A stretch of DNA of 40,460 nucleotides, from NCBI GenBank assembly GCA_944325245.1, contig CALUZM010000014.1, forward strand, positions 1-40,460. Direction: 5' to 3'. This DNA comes from an uncultured Massilimicrobiota sp. (GTDB lineage Bacteria; Bacillota_I; Bacilli_A; Erysipelotrichales; Coprobacillaceae). The notes below the pieces were generated by a model, which was not told the origin of the DNA, ran no database searches, and saw only the letters and a list, made by a program, of their open reading frames with translations. The position numbers and the translations under genes are program-made. Positions 5,105 through 40,460 of this stretch are shown here, one piece after another (positions within the stretch are counted from its first letter, which is position 1; every line of letters begins with the position of its first letter).

Positions 5105-7111
5105 ATGAAATCATTCTTTTATCCTCGTTTAGCATTAACTAATCTAAGAAAGAATGCCAAACTCTATTTTCCATATTTATTAACAAGTTCTTTTACAGTT
5201 ATGATGTTTTATTTAATTAATTATTTAGCATCACATGAAGGTTTAAAACAAATGCAATCTGGTACAACAACAATGAAAGTCATTCTAAATTTAGGAATTA
5301 TTGTAATGGTCATCTTTTCTGTGATTTTCTTGTTTTATATGAATAGTTTTTTAATGAAACGTCGTAAAAAAGAAATTGCTTTATATAATATTTTAGGTTT
5401 AGAGAAGAAACATATTATGATTATGATGTTATATGAAACAATCATAACATCTTTCATTTCCTTATTGATGGGATTTGTTTTTGGAGTTATTTTTAGTCAA
5501 TTGGTTTCATTATTGTTGATTCATTTAATGGGATTAGCTACAACATTGACATTTCATGTTTCATGGTCATCTTTTTTGGTAACAGTGATTGTTTTCTTGC
5601 CTATTTATTTGGTTTCTTACTTGATTTATGTGATTCAGATTCAATTATCCAATCCTATTGAATTATTAAGAGGCTCACAAAGTGGAGAAAGAGAACCTAA
5701 GACGAAATGGTTAATGACCATTATTGGTTTTATCACATTAGGATTAGGATATTATATCGCAGTGACTATTGATGATCCCACAACAGCAATCGCTTTGTTC
5801 TTTGTAGCAGTTATTTTGGTTATTATTGGAACATATTGCTTATTTACAGCAGGTTCGATTACGATTTTAAAGCTTTTAAAGAAAAATAAGCATTTCTATT
5901 ACCAGACAAAACATTTTACTTCTGTTTCTCAGCTTATTTATCGTATGAAACAAAATGCTGTTGGATTAGCCAGTATCTGTATTTTATGTACATGTATATT
6001 GGTCATGTTATCAAGTACTGTTTCGCTCTATTTTGGTATTGAAGATACAGTGACAGCCTATCAACAGGATAGCTATAATCTAAAAGTTTATGGTTATGAT
6101 GATGGGGCTTTACCAAGTGATCAGGAATTTACAAAGTTTTATTCTCAAATACAAACTGAGTTAGAACAAAATGGTATAGGTGTTGATAGTTTCATCCATA
6201 CCAAAAGATATTCTGTCAGTGTTCGTTTTGCGAATAATCGTATTTTGACAGATAAGGAAACAGGAAATTTTGTCGTGGGTTATTTGGTTGGGATGACACA
6301 GGATGAATATAATCGTGCTTATCATCAAAATGTTCATTTAAGTGATCAGAATATTTTAGTCAGCAGTAATTTCTTTGAATTTAAAGACACTTTAGATATA
6401 GAACAGCAACAATATCCTATTCAGGAAGTTGTCCATCAACCTTATTTATTGCCTAATGAAAATCCAACTGCTGAAAGAAATCTGATTGTTATTATGAAAG
6501 ATGAAGAAGCTATTCAAGAAATGATGTCACATTTCTTTGGTGATTCTATCAAACCCACAGAAAATCTTTCTATTGTTTATCACAATCAATCGAAAGCTAA
6601 AGAAGCTGAGGATATATTAACAAAATGTTTAGATAACTTTGTTTTAGAAACACAGAATGAACATGGGGGAATTTCTTTCTATCATTCTTCAATTTATGAA
6701 GTCAGATTAATGTTAATGGAATTGTATGGAAGTTTATTCTTCTTAGGTATTTTCTTAGGAATCTTATTCTTAATGGCCACAATCTTAATCATGTATTATA
6801 AACAGTTATCAGAAGGTTATGAAGATCAAAAACGCTTTGAAATTATGCAGAAAGTCGGTATGAATGCAAAAGAAGTCAAACAGACTATTCGTTCTCAAGT
6901 TTTAATATTTTTCTTTTTGCCACTACTTGCTGCAGTCATTCATATGGCTTTTGCTTTCCATTTAATTACTATGATGTTTGGTTATATTGTAATCAGTGGT
7001 ACACAGGTCTTTATTACATGTACGCTTATTTCCGTTATTATCGTGGCTATAGTTTATGCAATCGTATACTTATTTACATCAAGAACATATTATCGTATTG
7101 TTAAAAATTAA
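5105..7111 (+). CDS. FtsX-family ABC transporter permease (BceB-like)
   Basis: This 668-residue permease has about ten predicted membrane helices: one near 18-40, a cluster between about 55 and 310, and three to four at 545-665. A large extracellular domain at about 320-540 has no membrane segments. That arrangement, with two FtsX domains and one big loop between helices 7 and 8, is diagnostic of BceB-type permeases, whose loop contacts the antibiotic or the kinase. It follows the ATPase by one base behind SD AGGAGG. The hairpin at 7114-7145 ends the unit. Substrate is unknown; bacitracin-like peptides or lantibiotics are usual for the family. Confidence 0.92.
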   Translation: MKSFFYPRLALTNLRKNAKLYFPYLLTSSFTVMMFYLINYLASHEGLKQMQSGTTTMKVILNLGIIVMVIFSVIFLFYMNSFLMKRRKKEIALYNILGLEKKHIMIMMLYETIITSFISLLMGFVFGVIFSQLVSLLLIHLMGLATTLTFHVSWSSFLVTVIVFLPIYLVSYLIYVIQIQLSNPIELLRGSQSGEREPKTKWLMTIIGFITLGLGYYIAVTIDDPTTAIALFFVAVILVIIGTYCLFTAGSITILKLLKKNKHFYYQTKHFTSVSQLIYRMKQNAVGLASICILCTCILVMLSSTVSLYFGIEDTVTAYQQDSYNLKVYGYDDGALPSDQEFTKFYSQIQTELEQNGIGVDSFIHTKRYSVSVRFANNRILTDKETGNFVVGYLVGMTQDEYNRAYHQNVHLSDQNILVSSNFFEFKDTLDIEQQQYPIQEVVHQPYLLPNENPTAERNLIVIMKDEEAIQEMMSHFFGDSIKPTENLSIVYHNQSKAKEAEDILTKCLDNFVLETQNEHGGISFYHSSIYEVRLMLMELYGSLFFLGIFLGILFLMATILIMYYKQLSEGYEDQKRFEIMQKVGMNAKEVKQTIRSQVLIFFFLPLLAAVIHMAFAFHLITMMFGYIVISGTQVFITCTLISVIIVAIVYAIVYLFTSRTYYRIVKN

Positions 7112-7529: not shown

Positions 7530-8563
7530 TATAATAATCCCATTTCAATCATCTTTAAACCGATATCAACAGAGTTATAAGCTGCGCCTTTCATTAACTG
7601 GTCAGCGACAATCCATAAGCTTAAAGCATGATCATTATCTAAATCTTTACGAACACGTCCCACATGGACAAGTTCATCACCAACAAAAAGATTGGCCATT
7701 GGATAAATCTGGTTTTCAATATCGTCATAGAGTTCTACACCATGAGAATGAGATAATAATTCAAAGACTTTATCAATGTCAATAGGTTTCTTTGTTTCAA
7801 TATAAACAGATTCACTATGCCCTCTGAGTACGGGAACACGTACACAAGTGGCATTGACTTTAATATCTTTATTAAAGATTTTCTTTGTTTCATTAACCAT
7901 TTTCATTTCTTCTTTTGTAAAATGATTATCTAAATCAAATTTATCAACTTGAGGAATACAGTTAAAAGCAATTGGGTAATGTTTTTTATCAGAAGCACAA
8001 GGCAATGTTTTAGCTACTGGTTCTTTACCATCTAAAACTTCTTGAGACTGACGATATAATTCTTCCATTCCGGCAACACCAGCACCTGAAACAGCCTGAT
8101 AAGTTGAAACAATGATTCTTTCAATATCAAAATATTCATTTAAACGATTTAAAGCACTGACCATTTGAATAGTTGTACAATTTGGATTGGCAATAATACC
8201 TTTATGGTCTTTTAAAGCATAGGCATTGACTTCTGGCACAACTAATGGCACATCAGGATCCATTCTAAAGTGAGATGTATTATCAATATTGATACATCCG
8301 GCTTTAACAGCATAAGGCATATATTTTTCAGAAATGCTTCCACCAGCACTCCAGAAAGCCACTTCAATATCTTCAAATGAATTTTCAGTTAATTCTTCAA
8401 CGACAAATTCATGACCTTCATACTCAATAACTTTTCCTGCACTTCTTGCAGAAGCTAATAATTTTAAACTTTCAAAAGGGAAGTGAAACTGAAAGATACA
8501 TCTTAACATTTCTCTTCCAACAGCACCTGTAGCACCGACAATTGCAACTTTATATTTTTTCAT
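7529..8563 (-). CDS. asd: Aspartate-semialdehyde dehydrogenase
   Basis: This enzyme reduces aspartyl phosphate to aspartate semialdehyde with NADPH, the branch point to lysine/diaminopimelate and to homoserine, threonine and methionine. The 344 residues begin with the Rossmann motif VGATGAVG (9-16). The catalytic cysteine is C129 in NPNCTT and the catalytic histidine is H249 in RGHSES. It lies 15 bases after aspartate kinase, so both enzymes of the shared upper pathway are made from one mRNA. The expected SD lies just upstream of ATG 8563. Length and motifs are normal and I see nothing broken. Confidence 0.97.
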   Translation of the reverse strand: MKKYKVAIVGATGAVGREMLRCIFQFHFPFESLKLLASARSAGKVIEYEGHEFVVEELTENSFEDIEVAFWSAGGSISEKYMPYAVKAGCINIDNTSHFRMDPDVPLVVPEVNAYALKDHKGIIANPNCTTIQMVSALNRLNEYFDIERIIVSTYQAVSGAGVAGMEELYRQSQEVLDGKEPVAKTLPCASDKKHYPIAFNCIPQVDKFDLDNHFTKEEMKMVNETKKIFNKDIKVNATCVRVPVLRGHSESVYIETKKPIDIDKVFELLSHSHGVELYDDIENQIYPMANLFVGDELVHVGRVRKDLDNDHALSLWIVADQLMKGAAYNSVDIGLKMIEMGLL

Positions 8564-31391: not shown

Positions 31392-31775
31392 ATGGAAGAG
31401 ATATTACAAGTTGTGGAACGTTATAAGGAAGTTATCCATACACAAAAGAAAGAAGACTTTTATGCATTATGGGCAAAGCGTGATGATTGCACCATGATTT
31501 CAGTGGCTCAGGTCTTTTGTGGTGTTGAAAGTATTTATCAGGATTTTTTAATAGATAGAATTCAAAAGAAGTATCTGGATATTGAACTTTTGACTCAAAA
31601 TATAACAGTTCATCACATTCATGAAACGATGGCCATTGTGATTTTTGAATATCAGACAAAGTGTCTACTCAGAGAAACACAGGAAGCTTATGGCATTCAA
31701 GGCATAGAAACACAAGTCATGATCAAAGAAAATCAACAATGGAAATTATTACATGTTCATTATTCTAAAGCTTAA
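31392..31775 (+). CDS. NTF2-like / SnoaL-family protein
   Basis: This 127-residue single-domain protein of the cone-like NTF2 superfamily has an N-terminal helix pair (VVERYKEVIHTQKKEDFYALW), the G-V-E-S-I-Y helix, then four strands ending GIETQVMIKENQQWKLLHVHYS, which fits SnoaL_3 / DUF4440 members. Such domains bind small hydrophobic ligands or act as isomerases, and some are toxin-immunity proteins. It starts one base after the 177-aa gene, with SD AAAGGA inside that gene, so it belongs to the same operon, the last before the terminator at 31857. Confidence 0.75.
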   Translation: MEEILQVVERYKEVIHTQKKEDFYALWAKRDDCTMISVAQVFCGVESIYQDFLIDRIQKKYLDIELLTQNITVHHIHETMAIVIFEYQTKCLLRETQEAYGIQGIETQVMIKENQQWKLLHVHYSKA

Positions 31776-32201: not shown

Positions 32202-32513
32202 TTGGACAAAATTATTGATGATATTGTTTCAATAGATTTAGAGTGTTCAAAAAGGGTTGAAGAAGCTAAAAAGAAAAAGCAAGATGTTCAAGCCAATATG
32301 AATGCGAAAAAGAAAGAAATCTATGATTCTTTTGTGAAGGAATATCAAGTCAAAGTTGATGCACATAAGAAAGAATTAGAAGCAAAGATTCAAGAAACAA
32401 AAGTCAAAAATGAACAAGAGTACAAAGAATCACTGAATCAGCTCTCTAGTCTTTACGAAAAGAATAAAGATGAGTGGGTTTCTACCATTGTTAATCGTTG
32501 TAAAGAAATATAG
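32202..32513 (+). CDS. V-type ATPase G/H-like stalk subunit
   Basis: This 103-residue, almost fully coiled-coil protein (Lys/Glu-rich heptads through residues 12-90) matches the small peripheral stalk subunit (AhaH/NtpF type) that pairs with subunit E. It starts with TTG 32202, selected by SD GAGGAGGG six bases upstream; no ATG fits. First gene of the V-ATPase operon, 15 bases before subunit C. Identification rests on coiled-coil form, size and position more than on sequence motifs. Confidence 0.75.
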   Translation: MDKIIDDIVSIDLECSKRVEEAKKKKQDVQANMNAKKKEIYDSFVKEYQVKVDAHKKELEAKIQETKVKNEQEYKESLNQLSSLYEKNKDEWVSTIVNRCKEI

Positions 32514-32528: not shown

Positions 32529-33566
32529 ATGAGTTCTTTTTCATCAAATGCGATTCTTGCGAAAGCACGTTCTATGTATTCACGTAGACTGACTCAGCAA
32601 AATTATGATGAGCTTTTGAAAAGAAGAAGCATTAATGATTTAGTTGCTTATTTGAAAAGTGAGACAGCTTATAGTGGTATATTAGCTGATTTAAAAGAAG
32701 TGAATGTTCATCGTGGTCAGTTAGAAACTTTATTAAATAAAGAAATTTTCTTAAGACTGGATCGTTTGATGAGATTTTCTTCAAAAAAGGAATTAGAATT
32801 TTATCGCTTAGGTGTTATGGAATTAGAAATTCAATTGATTTTAACAAAAGCAAGATTGATTGTTTCTGATTATTACACAGGTTATGAGATTGAAATTCCT
32901 GATTATTTGAATAAATATGCGAGCTTTGATTTATATGGTTTACTAGCTCTTAATGATTATGATAGTTTGTTGTTGCTGTTAAAAGGAACAAAGTATTATC
33001 AACCATTATTGAAATATAAACCTAAAGAAGATGAAAGATTTGATTCCAATATGTTAGAGTTGGAATTAAAGCATATTTATTATGCGGAGTATGTTGATGT
33101 CGTTAATAAGCTGTATAAAGGAAAAAAACGTAAAGATTTATTAACAATGATCAATACATCTATAGAGTTACAGAATATTACAAAGATATATCGTCTAAAG
33201 AAATACTTTAATGCAACACCAGATCAAATTAGAGAAACACTATTTATGGAATATAGCCGTATTCCAAAAAGTGTAATGTTTGAACTCATTGAAACAAAGG
33301 ATGCCAGCGAATTTTTGAAAAAATTAGCTGAGTCACCTTATAAGCTTTATATTGATGATCATGAATTTGTATATATTGAATATTATACAGAAAAGATCAG
33401 ATACAATTTAGCAAGACGTTTTATGAGATTTTCAACAGATAGTGCATTGGTTTACATGACATATAAAATTGTATTTCAAATAGAAATTGATAATCTTAAA
33501 CATATTATTGAAGGTTTAAGATATGGAGAAGCACCAAGTCAGATTGAGACGATGCTGATCTATTAG
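32529..33566 (+). CDS. ntpC: V-type ATPase subunit C
   Basis: This 345-residue helical protein of the AC39 / archaeal subunit C family connects the rotor ring to the central stalk. The start SSNAILAKARSMYSRRLT and the repeated three-domain helical pattern are typical, as is the late FQIEIDNLKHIIEGLRYG near 315-332. SD AGAGGTGAG precedes the ATG. Length is normal. Eleven bases separate it from the first subunit I gene. Confidence 0.93.
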   Translation: MSSFSSNAILAKARSMYSRRLTQQNYDELLKRRSINDLVAYLKSETAYSGILADLKEVNVHRGQLETLLNKEIFLRLDRLMRFSSKKELEFYRLGVMELEIQLILTKARLIVSDYYTGYEIEIPDYLNKYASFDLYGLLALNDYDSLLLLLKGTKYYQPLLKYKPKEDERFDSNMLELELKHIYYAEYVDVVNKLYKGKKRKDLLTMINTSIELQNITKIYRLKKYFNATPDQIRETLFMEYSRIPKSVMFELIETKDASEFLKKLAESPYKLYIDDHEFVYIEYYTEKIRYNLARRFMRFSTDSALVYMTYKIVFQIEIDNLKHIIEGLRYGEAPSQIETMLIY

Positions 33567-33577
33567 GGGGACAAGAT

Positions 33578-35104
33578 ATGGCTATAGAAGAAATGATATT
33601 GTTAAATATGACATTTGATCGTACTGAACTCGATCAAGTCTTATTTACATTAAAAGATTCCAAGTACTTTTATCCTCAGCCTGCTTCAAAGATTGTCAAT
33701 AATGTCAAAGGGGTACATGCATTAGCAGAAGATAATGCTTATACAAAATTATTGGATCGTTTGATTCAGGTTGCATCTGATATGAAGTTGGATTTGAGTA
33801 ATGATTTAGCTTATGATAGAACACTTCAGTTTGATCGTACAAATGCTTACTTAAGTGATTTAGAAGCTGAAATCAAGAAAATCAAAGATGTTCAAGATCA
33901 GTTGATTGAAGAAAAAGATGAGAACGAAAAAACACTGGAAATTTTAAAGAGACTAACATTAAGTAATGTTAATCTTGATCAGTTATTGGATTGCCAATAT
34001 GTCAAAGTGAGATTTGGACGTTTTCATAGACAAAATCTTGATAGAATTCAATATTATGAAGGACGACCATTTATCTTTAATAAATTAGGTGAAGATCGTC
34101 ATTATGTATATTGTTGTTATATAGTAACAAACAATTTGTTGTTAGAAATCGACAATATTTTTAAAGCGTTAGGATTTGAAGAAATAGTACTTCCTTCATT
34201 TGTACATGGAAAGATTGATGATGCAAAGAAGGAATTAGAAGACGAAGTTCATGCTATGGAAGAATACATTCTACGCATGGATCAGAAAATGACAATTTTA
34301 AGAGAAACACATAAAGTTGATTTGTTGAAATTATATTCAACAGCATTATTCTTACAAAGAATAGAATCATTTAAAGTCTTTGTTGTGGATTATCAAAGCA
34401 AATGTGCCATTTATGGATTTATTCCTAAGCGTATGGTCACAGAATTTAAAGATATGTTAAAGTCTTTAAAAACTGTTGAATATCAGGAATTACCTGCTGA
34501 TATTTTAGATCATCAGGAAATTATCGCGCCAACTGTTGTGCATAATGCAAAAATTGTCAAACCGTTTGAAGTGCTTAGTAAAGTGAAACAATCAGATATG
34601 ATTGATACCACAATTGCTATTGCAGCACTTTATTATGTTGTCTTTATTATCTTTTTGGGGGACTTAGGAGTTGGAGCAGTCTTAGCATTGCTTGGACTTC
34701 TTATGAGAAAGAAAAAAATGGGTCAATTATTTCTTTCGCTTGGTATAGCAGCACTGCTAGGTGGGTTCATATATGGAGATGTTTTCTATACATTTCATCT
34801 TTACCCAGCAATAGCATTACCACTATCAACAGTTTATAAATTAATTGATGGTATACTTCTTTTGATTGCTGGAACATTTACAATTGGTGCATTTAAGAAA
34901 ATGTATCTTCAAAGTTCAGCAGTTGAAAAAGTCCTTTCCATGAAAGGTATTTGTGGTCTGATTATTGTTTATGCGATTTTGGTTTATTTTGGTTGTGTTT
35001 ATGAAGCACATCTCAATGTACCAATCATGCCATTTGCTATTGTGATTGTTGCTTGCCTTGTGTTTGTTTTGGCAAAATCAATTTTAAAAAAGAAAGCAGG
35101 ATAA
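33578..35104 (+). CDS. Short V-type ATPase subunit I paralogue
   Basis: This 508-residue protein is homologous to the next gene in its first ~330 cytoplasmic residues (for example VRFGRFHRQNLDRIQYY, against IRFGRLPTVNLDKLKYY). The membrane part is short: about six helices between 347 and 500, without the FLRVGG segment that carries the essential arginine of subunit I. It therefore cannot by itself form the ion half-channel. It may occupy or lengthen the stalk, regulate assembly, or be a decaying duplicate, though the frame is intact and the SD good. Full-length subunit I follows after 15 bases. Confidence 0.85.
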   Translation: MAIEEMILLNMTFDRTELDQVLFTLKDSKYFYPQPASKIVNNVKGVHALAEDNAYTKLLDRLIQVASDMKLDLSNDLAYDRTLQFDRTNAYLSDLEAEIKKIKDVQDQLIEEKDENEKTLEILKRLTLSNVNLDQLLDCQYVKVRFGRFHRQNLDRIQYYEGRPFIFNKLGEDRHYVYCCYIVTNNLLLEIDNIFKALGFEEIVLPSFVHGKIDDAKKELEDEVHAMEEYILRMDQKMTILRETHKVDLLKLYSTALFLQRIESFKVFVVDYQSKCAIYGFIPKRMVTEFKDMLKSLKTVEYQELPADILDHQEIIAPTVVHNAKIVKPFEVLSKVKQSDMIDTTIAIAALYYVVFIIFLGDLGVGAVLALLGLLMRKKKMGQLFLSLGIAALLGGFIYGDVFYTFHLYPAIALPLSTVYKLIDGILLLIAGTFTIGAFKKMYLQSSAVEKVLSMKGICGLIIVYAILVYFGCVYEAHLNVPIMPFAIVIVACLVFVLAKSILKKKAG

Positions 35105-35119
35105 GGAAGGGAGAAATAT

Positions 35120-37045
35120 ATGGCAATAGCAAAATTAAAGCTTCTGGAAATTGAATTTCCAGCACAGCAATATGATGCTGTTTTATTAAAGCTGATTAAC
35201 CTTGATAATTTTCATCCCGAACCAGCTTCGAAATTTGCCGATTCAGTCCAAGGGTTATCAGTTTTAAATCGTGAAAATCCTTATGCTGATTTAATCGCAA
35301 GAATGGAAGAAGCAGGGGAGAAATATCATCTTCAATTAAAATGTGATGATGTGGATAATGTACGTATGAATATTATCCAGGCAGATACATTCTTCTGTAA
35401 TGTATTAGAAAAAGCATCACAAATTGAAAAAGTTAAAGAAGATTTATTAAACATGATTCAAGAGAATGAGGCAACAATTGCTCAATTAGAGCATATGATT
35501 GATGCCAATATTGATTTTGATAGATTATTCTCTTGTAAATATTTACAGATTCGTTTTGGACGTTTACCAACTGTGAATTTAGATAAGTTGAAATATTATG
35601 GAGAACAGAAATTCTTATTTAAAGTTTTACATAAAGGAACAAAAGAAACTTATTGTAGTTATATTTCAACAGCTGATCATGCGCCTGAAATTGATAACAT
35701 CTTCTCTTCATTATATTTTGAACGTATTCATATTCCAGAATTCGTTCATGGAAAACCTAATGAAGCCTTAGAGGTCTTAAAAGAAGAAGATGAAACAGCA
35801 AAACAATATATTCAAGTTCTTGATCAAAGAATTGAGAATTTATTCAATGAAAATATTGATGAAATGAATCATATTTATTCGATTTCAAAAAAATTGAATG
35901 AAACATATGATGCTCAAAAATACGTTGTCGTTTTTGGTAAAAATGCTGCAGTTTATGGATTCGCTGAAGAAAAAGATGCAAAACAGATTAAAGCAGATTT
36001 TGAAAAATTAGATGACGTTGAAGTGGATATTGGTCCAGCAATGGGCGATTCACGTTTGACACCACCTACAAAACTTAAGAACAACTGGTTCTCTAGACCA
36101 TTTAGAATGTTCGTAGAAATGTATGGTGTGCCATCTTATACAGATTTTGATCCAACAAATTTAGTTGCCATTACTTACACATTCCTATTTGGTATGATGT
36201 TTGGTGATGTTGGACAAGGGATTGTTTTATCATTAGTTGGATACTTCTTCTACAAATGGAAAGGTATGCAATTAGGTGCAGTCGGAATGCGTTTAGGTAT
36301 TTCAAGTACAATCTTTGGATTTGTCTTTGGTTCTATCTTTGGTAGTGAAGCATTGTTTGAACACTTTATGGAACCAATGTTCTTACCAATGGAATCAGAA
36401 AATACAATGACATTATTAATGGCTGCCATCGCGACAGGGGTTGTCTTAATCATTATTTCTATCGCATTCAATATTTTCTTAAATCTTAAGAAGAAACATT
36501 GGGGAGAAATGTTATTCTCACAAAATGGTGTTGCTGGACTTGTGTTCTATGTTTCAGTTTTATTATTAGTTGCGAATATGCTTGTTGGATTACATTTACC
36601 GTTAGGTGGTCCACTTTACATCGCATTATTAATTGCAATGCCAGTCGTGATGATCCTCTTAAAAGAACCATTATGTCATAAACTTGAAGGAGAAAAGATG
36701 TTCCCACATGGTTTTGGAGCATTCTTTACAGAAGCCTTCTTTGAATTATTTGAAGTTATGTTAACATTTATTGCCAATACAATGTCATTCTTACGTGTTG
36801 GTGGATTCGTTTTATCACATGCCGGAATGATGATGGTTGTTTATACATTGGCTGAAATGGTTGCCGGAGGACCTGGAATTATTAATTTTGGATATATTTT
36901 AGTTGCCATCATTGGAAATATCTTTGTTATGTGTCTAGAAGGTATGATTGTTGGTATCCAGGTTTTACGTTTAGAGTTCTATGAAATGTTCTCACGTTAC
37001 TATGAAGGAAAAGGAACACCTTTTCAATCAATTAAAGAAAAATAA
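35120..37045 (+). CDS. ntpI: V-type ATPase subunit I (full length)
   Basis: This 641-residue stator subunit a/I has a long cytoplasmic N-terminal half with coiled coils (1-330), then about eight membrane helices (about 350-620). The essential arginine is R559 in MSFLRVGGFVLSHAG, which faces the rotor glutamate. The end shows the typical LRLEFYEMFSRYYEGKG. The SD AAGGAAGGGAG precedes the ATG. Together with subunit K it forms the membrane ion path. It lies downstream of its truncated paralogue. Confidence 0.95.
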   Translation: MAIAKLKLLEIEFPAQQYDAVLLKLINLDNFHPEPASKFADSVQGLSVLNRENPYADLIARMEEAGEKYHLQLKCDDVDNVRMNIIQADTFFCNVLEKASQIEKVKEDLLNMIQENEATIAQLEHMIDANIDFDRLFSCKYLQIRFGRLPTVNLDKLKYYGEQKFLFKVLHKGTKETYCSYISTADHAPEIDNIFSSLYFERIHIPEFVHGKPNEALEVLKEEDETAKQYIQVLDQRIENLFNENIDEMNHIYSISKKLNETYDAQKYVVVFGKNAAVYGFAEEKDAKQIKADFEKLDDVEVDIGPAMGDSRLTPPTKLKNNWFSRPFRMFVEMYGVPSYTDFDPTNLVAITYTFLFGMMFGDVGQGIVLSLVGYFFYKWKGMQLGAVGMRLGISSTIFGFVFGSIFGSEALFEHFMEPMFLPMESENTMTLLMAAIATGVVLIIISIAFNIFLNLKKKHWGEMLFSQNGVAGLVFYVSVLLLVANMLVGLHLPLGGPLYIALLIAMPVVMILLKEPLCHKLEGEKMFPHGFGAFFTEAFFELFEVMLTFIANTMSFLRVGGFVLSHAGMMMVVYTLAEMVAGGPGIINFGYILVAIIGNIFVMCLEGMIVGIQVLRLEFYEMFSRYYEGKGTPFQSIKEK

Positions 37046-37072: not shown

Positions 37073-37498
37073 ATGAATTTAGTTATGTTTATTTTACCTG
37101 CTATTGCTGTTGTTTTATTATCTTTACCATTAGTGAAAATGTTTACTTCTAAAGTCAGCAAAGAAAGCGCAAAATGGCGTTTAATGACTCATGTTGGAGG
37201 ATTCTTTGGAGCTGTTGCTTTAACTTTATGTTTATCAATGGGATCTGCATTTGCCGCTGATGCTGCTTCTATCACTGGAACTTTAGCTCAAGGTTTAGGA
37301 TTCATCGCTGCTGCTTTAGCTACTGGATGTTCTGCATTAGGTGCAGGTATTGCCGTTGCTGCTGCTGCTCCTGCAGCTATTGGAGCTTTCTCTGAAAATG
37401 ATAACAACTTCGGTAAAGCATTGATTTTCGTTGCCTTAGGTGAAGGGGTTGCTATTTACGGATTATTAATTTCAATCTTAATTATCAACGCTTTATAA
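37073..37498 (+). CDS. ntpK: V-type ATPase rotor subunit K (proteolipid)
   Basis: This 141-residue proteolipid has four hydrophobic segments (1-22, 42-60, 67-103, 115-140). The ion-binding carboxylate is E124 in ALGEGVAIYG in the last helix; Q73 lies in the Gly/Ala-rich helix before it. The first hairpin has no carboxylate. Glu is followed by Gly, not by Ser/Thr as in several sodium-binding rings, which weakly favours protons. Gly/Ala codon use is T-ending and strongly biased, as for a highly expressed gene. Confidence 0.93.
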   Translation: MNLVMFILPAIAVVLLSLPLVKMFTSKVSKESAKWRLMTHVGGFFGAVALTLCLSMGSAFAADAASITGTLAQGLGFIAAALATGCSALGAGIAVAAAAPAAIGAFSENDNNFGKALIFVALGEGVAIYGLLISILIINAL

Positions 37499-37523: not shown

Positions 37524-37832
37524 ATGAAATTTTTCTTAATCAGCGATAATATTGATACATTAATGGGACTAAGACTTGTAGGCATTGAAGGGGTCGTTGT
37601 GCATACGAGAAAAGATTTTCTTGAAGTCTTACAATCAAAAATGAAAGACTCATCTATTGCGATTATCCTTGTGACTACAAAATTAGTTGATATGTGTCCA
37701 GATATTATATCTGAGATTAAATTAAAACAACAAAAACCACTCATTACAGAAATACCTGACCGTCATGGAAATTCAAAAATTGGTGAAACAATTGACGGTT
37801 ATGTATCTGAAGCTATTGGAGTGAAATTATAG
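37524..37832 (+). CDS. ntpG: V-type ATPase subunit F
   Basis: This 102-residue central-stalk subunit F has the CheY-like fold: FLISDNIDTLMGLRLVGIEG at the start, a central IAIILVTTKL strand and the ITEIPD(R)HG segment before the flexible C-terminal helix. Normal length and position (after K, before E). Binds subunit D in the rotor. Confidence 0.92.
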   Translation: MKFFLISDNIDTLMGLRLVGIEGVVVHTRKDFLEVLQSKMKDSSIAIILVTTKLVDMCPDIISEIKLKQQKPLITEIPDRHGNSKIGETIDGYVSEAIGVKL

Positions 37833-37844
37833 GAGAGATAGATT

Positions 37845-38441
37845 ATGCAAAATATTGATCAAGTATTTCTCTATATGAAAGATGAAATTGAAAGACAGGC
37901 AAAAAGCGAAGAACAGGCAATTTTAAATGAAGTCAAAGCTCTTGAAGATGAAGCTTATGAATCTATGAAAGCTGAAGCTAAAAAAGATGCTGATTTAAAA
38001 TTGAAACAGGAAGAAGAAGAAATGAGTTCTAACGCTTCTGCTGAAATTTCTGAAAGTCATATTGAAAGAACAAAGAAATTAATTGAAAAAAGAGATGAAT
38101 ATGTCAAAAATATCTTTGATAAAGCACGTGAAGAATTAAAAGCTTTTGTGAAAAGTGATGATTATTTACCTTTTATGGAAGCAAAAATCAAGAAAGTTGC
38201 TGATGATTTTAAAGATCAGCAATCTACAATGTATGTTTCACAAGATGATTTGGCTATCAAAGCTGATTTAATCAAAGCTTTTGGATCAGATATTGATGTT
38301 CAAGCAAGTGATGACATTACAATTGGTGGATTTATTCTTGAAAATAAAGCATCATCTTTAGTTGTTGATGAAACATTAGATTTTGCTTTAAATAATCAAA
38401 AAGAATGGTTTAATAAAAATTCTGGATTAATTATTAGATAG
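37845..38441 (+). CDS. ntpE: V-type ATPase subunit E
   Basis: This is a 198-residue peripheral stalk subunit. The long charged N-terminal helix (1-105) pairs with the G/H-like protein, and a small globular C-terminal domain (110-198), with the DDITIGGFIL turn near 160, contacts subunit B. It is preceded by SD AGGAGA and sits 12 bases after subunit F. Confidence 0.92.
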   Translation: MQNIDQVFLYMKDEIERQAKSEEQAILNEVKALEDEAYESMKAEAKKDADLKLKQEEEEMSSNASAEISESHIERTKKLIEKRDEYVKNIFDKAREELKAFVKSDDYLPFMEAKIKKVADDFKDQQSTMYVSQDDLAIKADLIKAFGSDIDVQASDDITIGGFILENKASSLVVDETLDFALNNQKEWFNKNSGLIIR

Positions 38442-38452
38442 AAACGGGAGGT

Positions 38453-40210
38453 ATGAGTGTGAATGAAAATGTAATTTATTCAATCAATGGTCCCGTTGTT
38501 ACAGTGAAAGATACAGATGCCTTTTCTATGTTGGAAATGGTATATGTTGGTAATGCGAGATTGATTGGAGAAGTTATTTCCATCAAGAAAGAATTAACAA
38601 CAATTCAGGTTTATGAAACAACAACAGGATTAAAACCAGGAGAACCAGTTTATGGAACAGGACAACCTATTTCTGTAACTTTAGGCCCTGGTATCTTAAG
38701 AAATATTTTTGATGGTATCGAAAGACCACTAGAAGAAATTGCCAAAGAATCTGGTGCGTTTATTCCAACAGGAAGCCATGTTGACCCATTAGATAAAAAT
38801 AAATTATGGGATGTCACAATGGTAGCAAAAGTTGGTGATCAGGTTAAAGGGGGAGACATTTATGCCACTATCCCTGAAACTGATCTGATTACTCATAAAT
38901 GTATGGTTTCTCCATATACAAGTGGAAAAGTCATTGAAGTTGCTCCATCTGGTCAATATAAAATTGATGATGTTGTGATGAAAATTGAAACTGATGAAGG
39001 TCAAGTTGTGGAATGTACATTAACACAAAAATGGCCAATCAAACAGGCGAGACCAGTTTCAAAACGTTTACCAATTTCTATGCCACTTGTGACTGGGCAA
39101 CGTGTTATTGATACATTGTTCCCAATTGCTAAGGGTGGAACAGCTGCGATTCCTGGAGGATTCGGTACTGGAAAAACAATGACTCAGCACCAGTTAGCAA
39201 AATGGTGCGATGCTGATATTATCGTTTATGTTGGTTGTGGAGAACGTGGTAACGAAATGACTCAGGTTCTTGAAGAATTTAGAGAATTGATTGACCCTAA
39301 ATCTAACAAACCATTAACTGATAGAACTGTATTGATTGCCAATACATCTAACATGCCAGTAGCAGCTCGTGAAGCTTCTATTTATACAGGAGTCACACTT
39401 GCTGAATATTATCGTGATATGGGATATCATGTTGCTATCATGGCAGATTCAACTTCTCGTTGGGCAGAAGCGTTACGTGAAATTTCTGGACGTTTGGAAG
39501 AAATGCCTGCTGAAGAAGGATTCCCAGCATACTTACCATCACGTTTATCACAATTCTATGAACGTGCTGGATATATGAATAACTTAAATGGAACAAAAGG
39601 TTCAGTCACAATTATCGGTGCCGTATCACCACAAGGTTCTGACTTCTCTGAACCAGTAACTCAAAATACAAAACGTTTCGTGCGTACATTCTGGGCATTG
39701 GATAAAGCCTTGGCTTATGCCCGTCACTATTTTGCGATTAACTGGAATCAAAGCTATAGTGAATACATCCCTGATCTTGAAAGATGGTTCAATAAAAATG
39801 TTGATCCAAAATTCTTAAGAGATCGTCAGGAATTACAAAGTATTTTAGCTGAAGAAACAAAATTAAATGAAATTGTCAAATTGATGGGTTCTGATGTTTT
39901 ACCAGATGATCAGAAATTAGTCATTGAAGTTGCAAAATTAGTACGTGTTGGTTACTTACAACAAAATGCATTCCATCCAGATGATACTTATGTACCACTT
40001 GAAAAACAGTTAAAGATGATGGAAGTTATCTTATACTTATATAAACGTGGAAGAGAAGTTGTTAATGCTGGAAAACCAATTCGTTTAATTTTGGAAACTG
40101 GTATTTTTGATAGAGTTGTCAAAATGAAATATGATGTTCCTAACAATAATTTGGCTTTATTTGATGATTATTATAAAGAAATTGATGAAGCAGTTGCATC
40201 TATTGACTAA
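38453..40210 (+). CDS. ntpA: V-type ATPase catalytic subunit A
   Basis: This 585-residue catalytic subunit hydrolyses ATP at the A-B interface. The P-loop is GGFGTGKT around residues 235-242, followed by CGERGNEM and the SRWAEALREIS segment; the non-homologous region (about 110-185) typical of V-type A subunits is present. SD GGGAGG (38446-38451) almost touches ATG 38453, so GTG 38459 (seven-base spacing) may be the real start. Length is normal, and subunit B follows after 14 bases. Confidence 0.97.
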   Translation: MSVNENVIYSINGPVVTVKDTDAFSMLEMVYVGNARLIGEVISIKKELTTIQVYETTTGLKPGEPVYGTGQPISVTLGPGILRNIFDGIERPLEEIAKESGAFIPTGSHVDPLDKNKLWDVTMVAKVGDQVKGGDIYATIPETDLITHKCMVSPYTSGKVIEVAPSGQYKIDDVVMKIETDEGQVVECTLTQKWPIKQARPVSKRLPISMPLVTGQRVIDTLFPIAKGGTAAIPGGFGTGKTMTQHQLAKWCDADIIVYVGCGERGNEMTQVLEEFRELIDPKSNKPLTDRTVLIANTSNMPVAAREASIYTGVTLAEYYRDMGYHVAIMADSTSRWAEALREISGRLEEMPAEEGFPAYLPSRLSQFYERAGYMNNLNGTKGSVTIIGAVSPQGSDFSEPVTQNTKRFVRTFWALDKALAYARHYFAINWNQSYSEYIPDLERWFNKNVDPKFLRDRQELQSILAEETKLNEIVKLMGSDVLPDDQKLVIEVAKLVRVGYLQQNAFHPDDTYVPLEKQLKMMEVILYLYKRGREVVNAGKPIRLILETGIFDRVVKMKYDVPNNNLALFDDYYKEIDEAVASID

Positions 40211-40224
40211 AGGAGGAAAAGGTT

Positions 40225-40460
40225 ATGAGTCTACAATATGTAGGGTTGAGCGAAATTAATGGTTCATTAGTCGTATTAGATCATGTTAAGGATGCTTCAT
40301 ATGACGAAATGGTCGAATTGCAATTAAAAGATGGTTCAACTCGTTTAGGACGTATCGTTCAAATTGAAGGAGAAAGAGTTGTTGTACAGGTTTTTGAAGG
40401 GACAAACTCTTTATCTCTTGCCAATACAAAAACAAGATTATTAGGTCATCCAATGGAACT
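40225..40460 (+). CDS. ntpB: V-type ATPase subunit B (cut by window end)
   Basis: The first 78 residues are visible, with the beta-barrel domain start (YVGLSEINGSLVVLD, then GRIVQIEGERVVVQVFEG) and LLGHPMEL, which in B subunits leads into the nucleotide-like domain. SD AAAGGAGG precedes ATG 40225. The gene continues past the window; subunit D would be expected next. Confidence 0.95.
   Translation, partial: MSLQYVGLSEINGSLVVLDHVKDASYDEMVELQLKDGSTRLGRIVQIEGERVVVQVFEGTNSLSLANTKTRLLGHPME

Follow-up and report, generated by a model that had tools for sequence, protein, structure and literature searches.

Some gut-type bacteria keep, beside the normal stator gene of their V-ATPase, a conserved second copy in which the arm is retained and the ion channel is lost. 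The example described here is from an uncultured Massilimicrobiota; the whole stretch of DNA analysed, 40,460 nt in length, is termed the window. The domain of the short protein is already known. What is new is that bacterial V-ATPase operons encode a second stator arm that is conserved and has no channel, and that such arms evolved repeatedly. A literature search, with most subscription papers outside its reach, found no earlier description of such an arm.

The window carries a V-ATPase operon on the forward strand in the order 103-aa ORF, C, short I, full I, K, F, E, A and the start of B. The short subunit I paralogue (508 aa, ATG start) is at 33578..35104 and the full subunit I (641 aa, ATG start) at 35120..37045. 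The gaps that flank the short gene, ~11 nt before it and ~15 nt after it, contain purine-rich stretches that by eye resemble ribosome-binding sites. Immediately upstream is subunit C of the bacterial V-ATPase, a rotor subunit called d in other naming (32529..33566; PF01992, E 5.8e-48). Downstream of the pair are subunit K, the proteolipid of the rotor ring (37073..37498; PF00137, E 6.5e-15), subunit F (37524..37832; PF01990), the peripheral stalk subunit E (37845..38441; PF01991), the catalytic subunit A (38453..40210; PF00006 and others) and the start of subunit B (40225..40458), an open frame cut by the window end and named from the position of B after A in relatives. In subunit K about 70 residues, including a hydrophobic N-terminal segment, precede the Pfam proteolipid domain (residues 78-137). 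The ORF at the head of the operon (32202..32513) is by its position and coiled-coil-like sequence a candidate G/H-like partner in the EG stalk. It is kept in most loci and is barely matched by the G/H stalk models (TIGR01147, a very weak E 0.076), and it may be a G-type stalk subunit missed by these models. In the V-ATPase operons inspected, no additional E or stalk genes were found. A SnoaL-like ORF (31392-31775; PF13474, E 2.5e-8) lies upstream of the operon, where relative L035 has different genes. Three relatives with 88% identity are all Massilimicrobiota, the only genus returned by the contig scan.

The V-ATPase is not the sole rotary ATPase of these bacteria. An F-type a subunit is present in 43/43 genomes of the window's family, thus the V-ATPase is a second rotary enzyme, and perhaps a dedicated pump.

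The first-pass annotation had reported two tandem subunit I genes, and both are found. The short copy (copy 1) and the full copy (copy 2) display 29% identity (BLASTP, E 9e-65), with the alignment reaching residue 469 of copy 1 and residue 482 of copy 2. The similarity is far above chance and the two are paralogues. Domain models recognize them unequally. The full copy matches PF01496 at 98.4 bits, the short copy matches no Pfam family at E 0.1, and none of eight further short copies tested matches PF01496. The NCBIfam subunit I models detect the short copy at E 7e-19 (67.7 bits) and the full copy at 224.6 bits; their cut-off of 777 bits excludes the true subunit as well.

It had also been noted that copy 1 ends before the FLRVGG motif, which holds R559 of copy 2. 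This holds, as nothing of copy 1 aligns there, and R617 is missing too. These two residues are taken as the counterparts of the paired arginines R563/R622 of Thermus subunit I (PMC7367684, available text) and R573/R629 of Enterococcus hirae subunit I (PMC10382590, available text). Both arginines are found in all 47 intact full copies checked; the short copies stop upstream of both, and nothing in the 25 short copies examined aligns with TM7-8. The description of copy 1 as sharing the cytoplasmic half needs to be widened. The arm (residues ~1-325) is indeed shared, but the sharing extends into the membrane domain, where six helices are predicted (345-507), and only TM7-8 are lacking. The AlphaFold model of the window short copy (41-row alignment, mean pLDDT 85.6) displays a two-lobed arm with a coiled coil, and its membrane half holds six helices, compared with the eight, TM7-8 included, of a functional channel subunit; the pTM of 0.59 makes the relative placing of the domains unsure. 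Predicted models of the short proteins share the two-lobed cytosolic arm with a coiled coil, and their best matches are to Thermus subunit I (for the window copy, Foldseek E 9.2e-18; VIA Z 18.4, rmsd 6.9, 484 aligned).

The short copy is not a strain-specific truncation, the outcome that had been named as refuting the observation. A subunit I match was obtained in 43/43 genomes of the family, and by reading of the listing the short gene is also present in 38 of them, covering 15 of 20 genera. Two stator I genes had been called unusual; they are uncommon across the class but the rule in this family. The short gene is missing from four genomes of four genera (G006, G008, G028, G029), and G007, whose contig starts inside the full gene (L098), stands outside the presence call. 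Trees of the arm domain place losses at two or more separate points in the family, so the extra arm is dispensable. The short proteins fall into length classes of 495-517, 452-454 and 435-436 aa, with 4-5, 2-4 and 2-3 strong membrane segments, respectively, by hydropathy, a measure that undercounts (full copies score 5-8).

The short copy is under purifying selection. NG86 dN/dS was computed for ten pairs from the five operons closest to the window. It is 0.11-0.19 for the short copy and 0.05-0.15 for the full copy; the same comparison gives 0.15-0.36 for subunit E, with the exception of one pair without amino-acid differences. Thus the relaxed selection of a pseudogene is not seen in these pairs, although the short copy diverges faster than the full copy. 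Broken frames are likewise few, in 2/38 carriers (G001 and G020), with the G014 copy truncated at the end of its contig. The G001 break falls at a run of A (L065, about position 6600); the F-type a gene of that assembly is likewise broken, and the break is therefore read as an assembly error. A frame break at a run of A is also present in the full copy of G021 (L086, about position 7848), and both of these breaks are probably sequencing errors.

In three genomes of two genera (G010, G030 and G031; g7 and g18; loci L073, L075 and L087) the short gene is found outside the V-ATPase operon. The unlinked copies of L075 and L087 have a dN/dS of 0.077. In L073 and L087, the two loci read closely, the surroundings are the same, near RNA-methyltransferase-like and shikimate-pathway genes (named by eye); the gene therefore probably moved once and was then kept.

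The survey was extended to related Bacilli with a profile search of 395 genomes of the class, plus fetched loci; all genomes listed in the phylum search belong to this one class. A third form was found, a stand-alone arm of about 320-341 aa that has no membrane segment and is encoded upstream of full I in the V-ATPase operons of families f22 and f11. Among the 34 f22 genomes searched, it is present in 9 of 24 with a match, including all matched members of three genera. Among the 88 f11 genomes searched it is present in 4 of 39 with a match; in three of these four, all of genus g115 (L144-L146), it precedes C rather than following it. A stand-alone arm of 315 aa is also found in G017, a genome placed in the window's own family (L081). 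The complete listing for the neighbouring family f2 has a short frame in none of 29 genomes with a match, and every frame is at least 596 aa. In some f2 genomes there is also a second V-ATPase operon of a distant type (subunit I at L100 5137-7062 and L101 5003-6931). Its subunit I is only 22-24% identical to the full copy of the window, and its A and B show about 51% identity. The stand-alone forms share a boundary: in 12/12, from three origins, the protein ends at a position equivalent to full-copy residue 320-330, just before the membrane domain.

Phylogenetic trees of the arm domain show that the channel-less copies arose at least four times, and perhaps six, in Bacilli. Each group of short copies falls with the full copies of its own lineage. 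In a tree of 72 rows (25 short, 47 full), from which L065, L086, L095, L098, L137 and L141 (broken, or truncated at a contig end) and L100 and L101 (the distant V-ATPase type) were left out, the short/full label needs five changes, the starred branches force four, and a single origin appears in 0/200 bootstrap trees. A single clade of all short copies is rejected in a 68-row test (AU p 3.5e-45), as is one clade of the five f22 short copies (p 2.6e-5); this test additionally omits four long-branch rows (S_L127, S_L081, F_L093, F_L099). An 82-row tree with 28 short copies, made without these four rows, the near-duplicates S_L096, F_L096, S_L087 and F_L088, and L147, retains four groups: f1 (100/100), f11-g115 (100/100), f22a (98/96) and f22b. 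The f22b short copies are not resolved as one clade there and are placed among their own full copies. A fifth and a sixth origin would be those of L081 and L127, both on long branches. Short copies of family f1 branch beside the full copies of the family (96/89, 72-row tree); alternatively, the f1 short copy may derive from a slightly older duplication and then have been lost in f2. Gene conversion between tandem copies could imitate part of the pattern of several origins, and many losses would also be needed.

Conservation of the arm was compared at positions that are at least 80% conserved in full copies. The f1 short copies keep 22/48 of these in the lobes and 4/6 in the coil, and the other short copies 37/48 and 5/6. 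The linker to the membrane domain is less well kept, with 2/11 conserved positions in f1 short copies and 3/11 in the others. A first cut had the distal lobe better preserved than the proximal one. With lobe limits set by the secondary structure of the model, most of this excess is gone when equally diverged pairs of full copies are used for comparison, and against such pairs no distal- or proximal-lobe specialisation of the short copies was found. The only outliers in lobe retention are L066, L081 and L126 and, for one half-lobe, L071 and L125.

These features fit an accessory or regulatory stator subunit, which is the part of the earlier three-way proposal (stator variant, regulatory subunit or early decay) that stands. 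In Thermus, the two lobes of the subunit I arm bind two EG stalks (PMC7367684, available text), and a channel-less arm encoded with the enzyme would most simply add EG docking sites. The reading we tentatively prefer, at somewhat less than even chances, is that the short copy is an accessory stator arm that binds EG tips without transporting ions, and most likely serves an extra stalk in the manner of eukaryotic subunit C. After a duplication of subunit I, one copy would have lost the channel while retaining the cytosolic arm that binds the stalk. By analogy with the subunit I arm, its two lobes would bind the tips of EG peripheral stalks, and the enzyme would thereby gain docking sites in addition to the two that the normal subunit offers; the arm would most likely hold a third or reinforced stalk. 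In the window's family the arm would be tethered to the membrane by an anchor of up to six helices, and in other lineages it would be soluble; ion transport would stay with the full copy. Against this reading count the losses of the short gene within the family, the failure to find additional E or stalk genes in the operons, the unspecialised lobes and a VIA score for subunit C no better than that of unrelated coiled coils.

The main rival is nearly as good, and has perhaps one chance in three by our estimate. Here the arm would act in trans, outside the running enzyme, as an assembly factor or a brake that binds EG tips or presses on rotor subunit C, and holds unassembled or resting complexes inactive. 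Such a brake would look much alike. When Thermus Vo is isolated, its arm touches rotor subunit d and stops rotation (PMC7367684, available text), and in eukaryotes the arm is described as a regulatory hub (PMC10313074, available text). Soluble versions of the arm exist, the short gene adjoins the rotor gene C, and recurrent gain and loss is in line with an accessory regulator. However an equimolar placing in the stator operon better suits a structural subunit, and the retention of both lobes and the coil exceeds what contact with the rotor alone would need.

It is improbable that the short copy has parted from the V-ATPase and taken up another task, such as that of a membrane adaptor for some other protein. 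The unlinked genes of G010, G030 and G031 and the faster divergence from the full copy are in keeping with such a move, but the great majority of carriers have the gene inside the V-ATPase operon, and this operon also houses the short genes of independent origin. Very unlikely is an alternative channel stator that replaces full subunit I in some complexes and yields a variant pump: in its favour are the paralogy of the two copies, their common operon and the retention of TM1-6 in the model, but the channel arginines and TM7-8 are missing, the full copy always remains in the operon, and in other lineages there is no membrane part whatever. Early decay, with the short copy as a truncated duplicate heading for loss, has just as little probability and, like artefact, is refuted for the family as a whole by the spread, the low dN/dS, the intact frames of nearly all carriers, the signs of assembly error in G001, the retention outside the operon and the repeated appearance of the same architecture, in spite of the faster evolution, the broken frames in G001 and G020 and the four genomes that lack the gene.

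Solved prokaryotic V/A-ATPases have two peripheral stalks and eukaryotic ones have three, plus the extra subunits C and H (PMC10382590 and PMC6131620, available text). A conserved extra bacterial arm with several origins and the same cut boundary would show a simple path from two stalks to three, and with it the origin of a subunit C-like protein would become testable in cultured gut commensals. A further possibility, which we consider doubtful, is that several bacterial lineages have independently built a subunit C-like collar for a third stalk from a duplicated subunit I arm, so that three-stalk bacterial V-ATPases exist in membrane-anchored and soluble grades. If true, a collar of this origin would repeat the kind of event that may have given eukaryotic V-ATPases their subunit C. 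On a practical level, annotating both genes as subunit I merges two different proteins.

Among known systems, the closest is V/A-ATPase subunit I (NtpI, subunit a) of Thermus thermophilus and E. hirae. The short copy shares its two alpha/beta lobes and coiled coil, and in the window copy also TM1-6-like helices; it differs in having neither TM7-8 nor the paired arginines and in being present alongside a full subunit I. For the stand-alone arm, the Foldseek hits displayed are first to subunit a/I and then to a class that includes eukaryotic subunit C (1u7l, E 3.9e-8); other chains of this second class, such as 7tmm_O and 6wm2_O, we take to be subunit C also. The window short copy matches subunit C at Foldseek E 2.2e-5. 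The VIA alignment with subunit C (Z 9.2, rmsd 8.3, 238 aligned) is level with unrelated coiled coils, so the resemblance is suggestive only and is kept as a likeness rather than a homology. Subunit C (Vma5) has a common shape with the short copy, two globular ends joined by a coiled coil. Its head holds the third stalk, and the review that describes this states, in its available text, that A- and F-type ATPases lack homologues of subunit C (PMC6131620). A role at an extra EG stalk and EG binding itself are proposed for the short copy, which differs from subunit C in having no recognised sequence relation to it and, in the window, a membrane anchor. Eukaryotic subunit a isoforms (Vph1/Stv1, human a1-a4) likewise provide more than one subunit a gene per organism (PMC10313074, available text). 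Those isoforms are full channel subunits used in different places, whereas here one paralogue is channel-less and both are encoded in the same operon.
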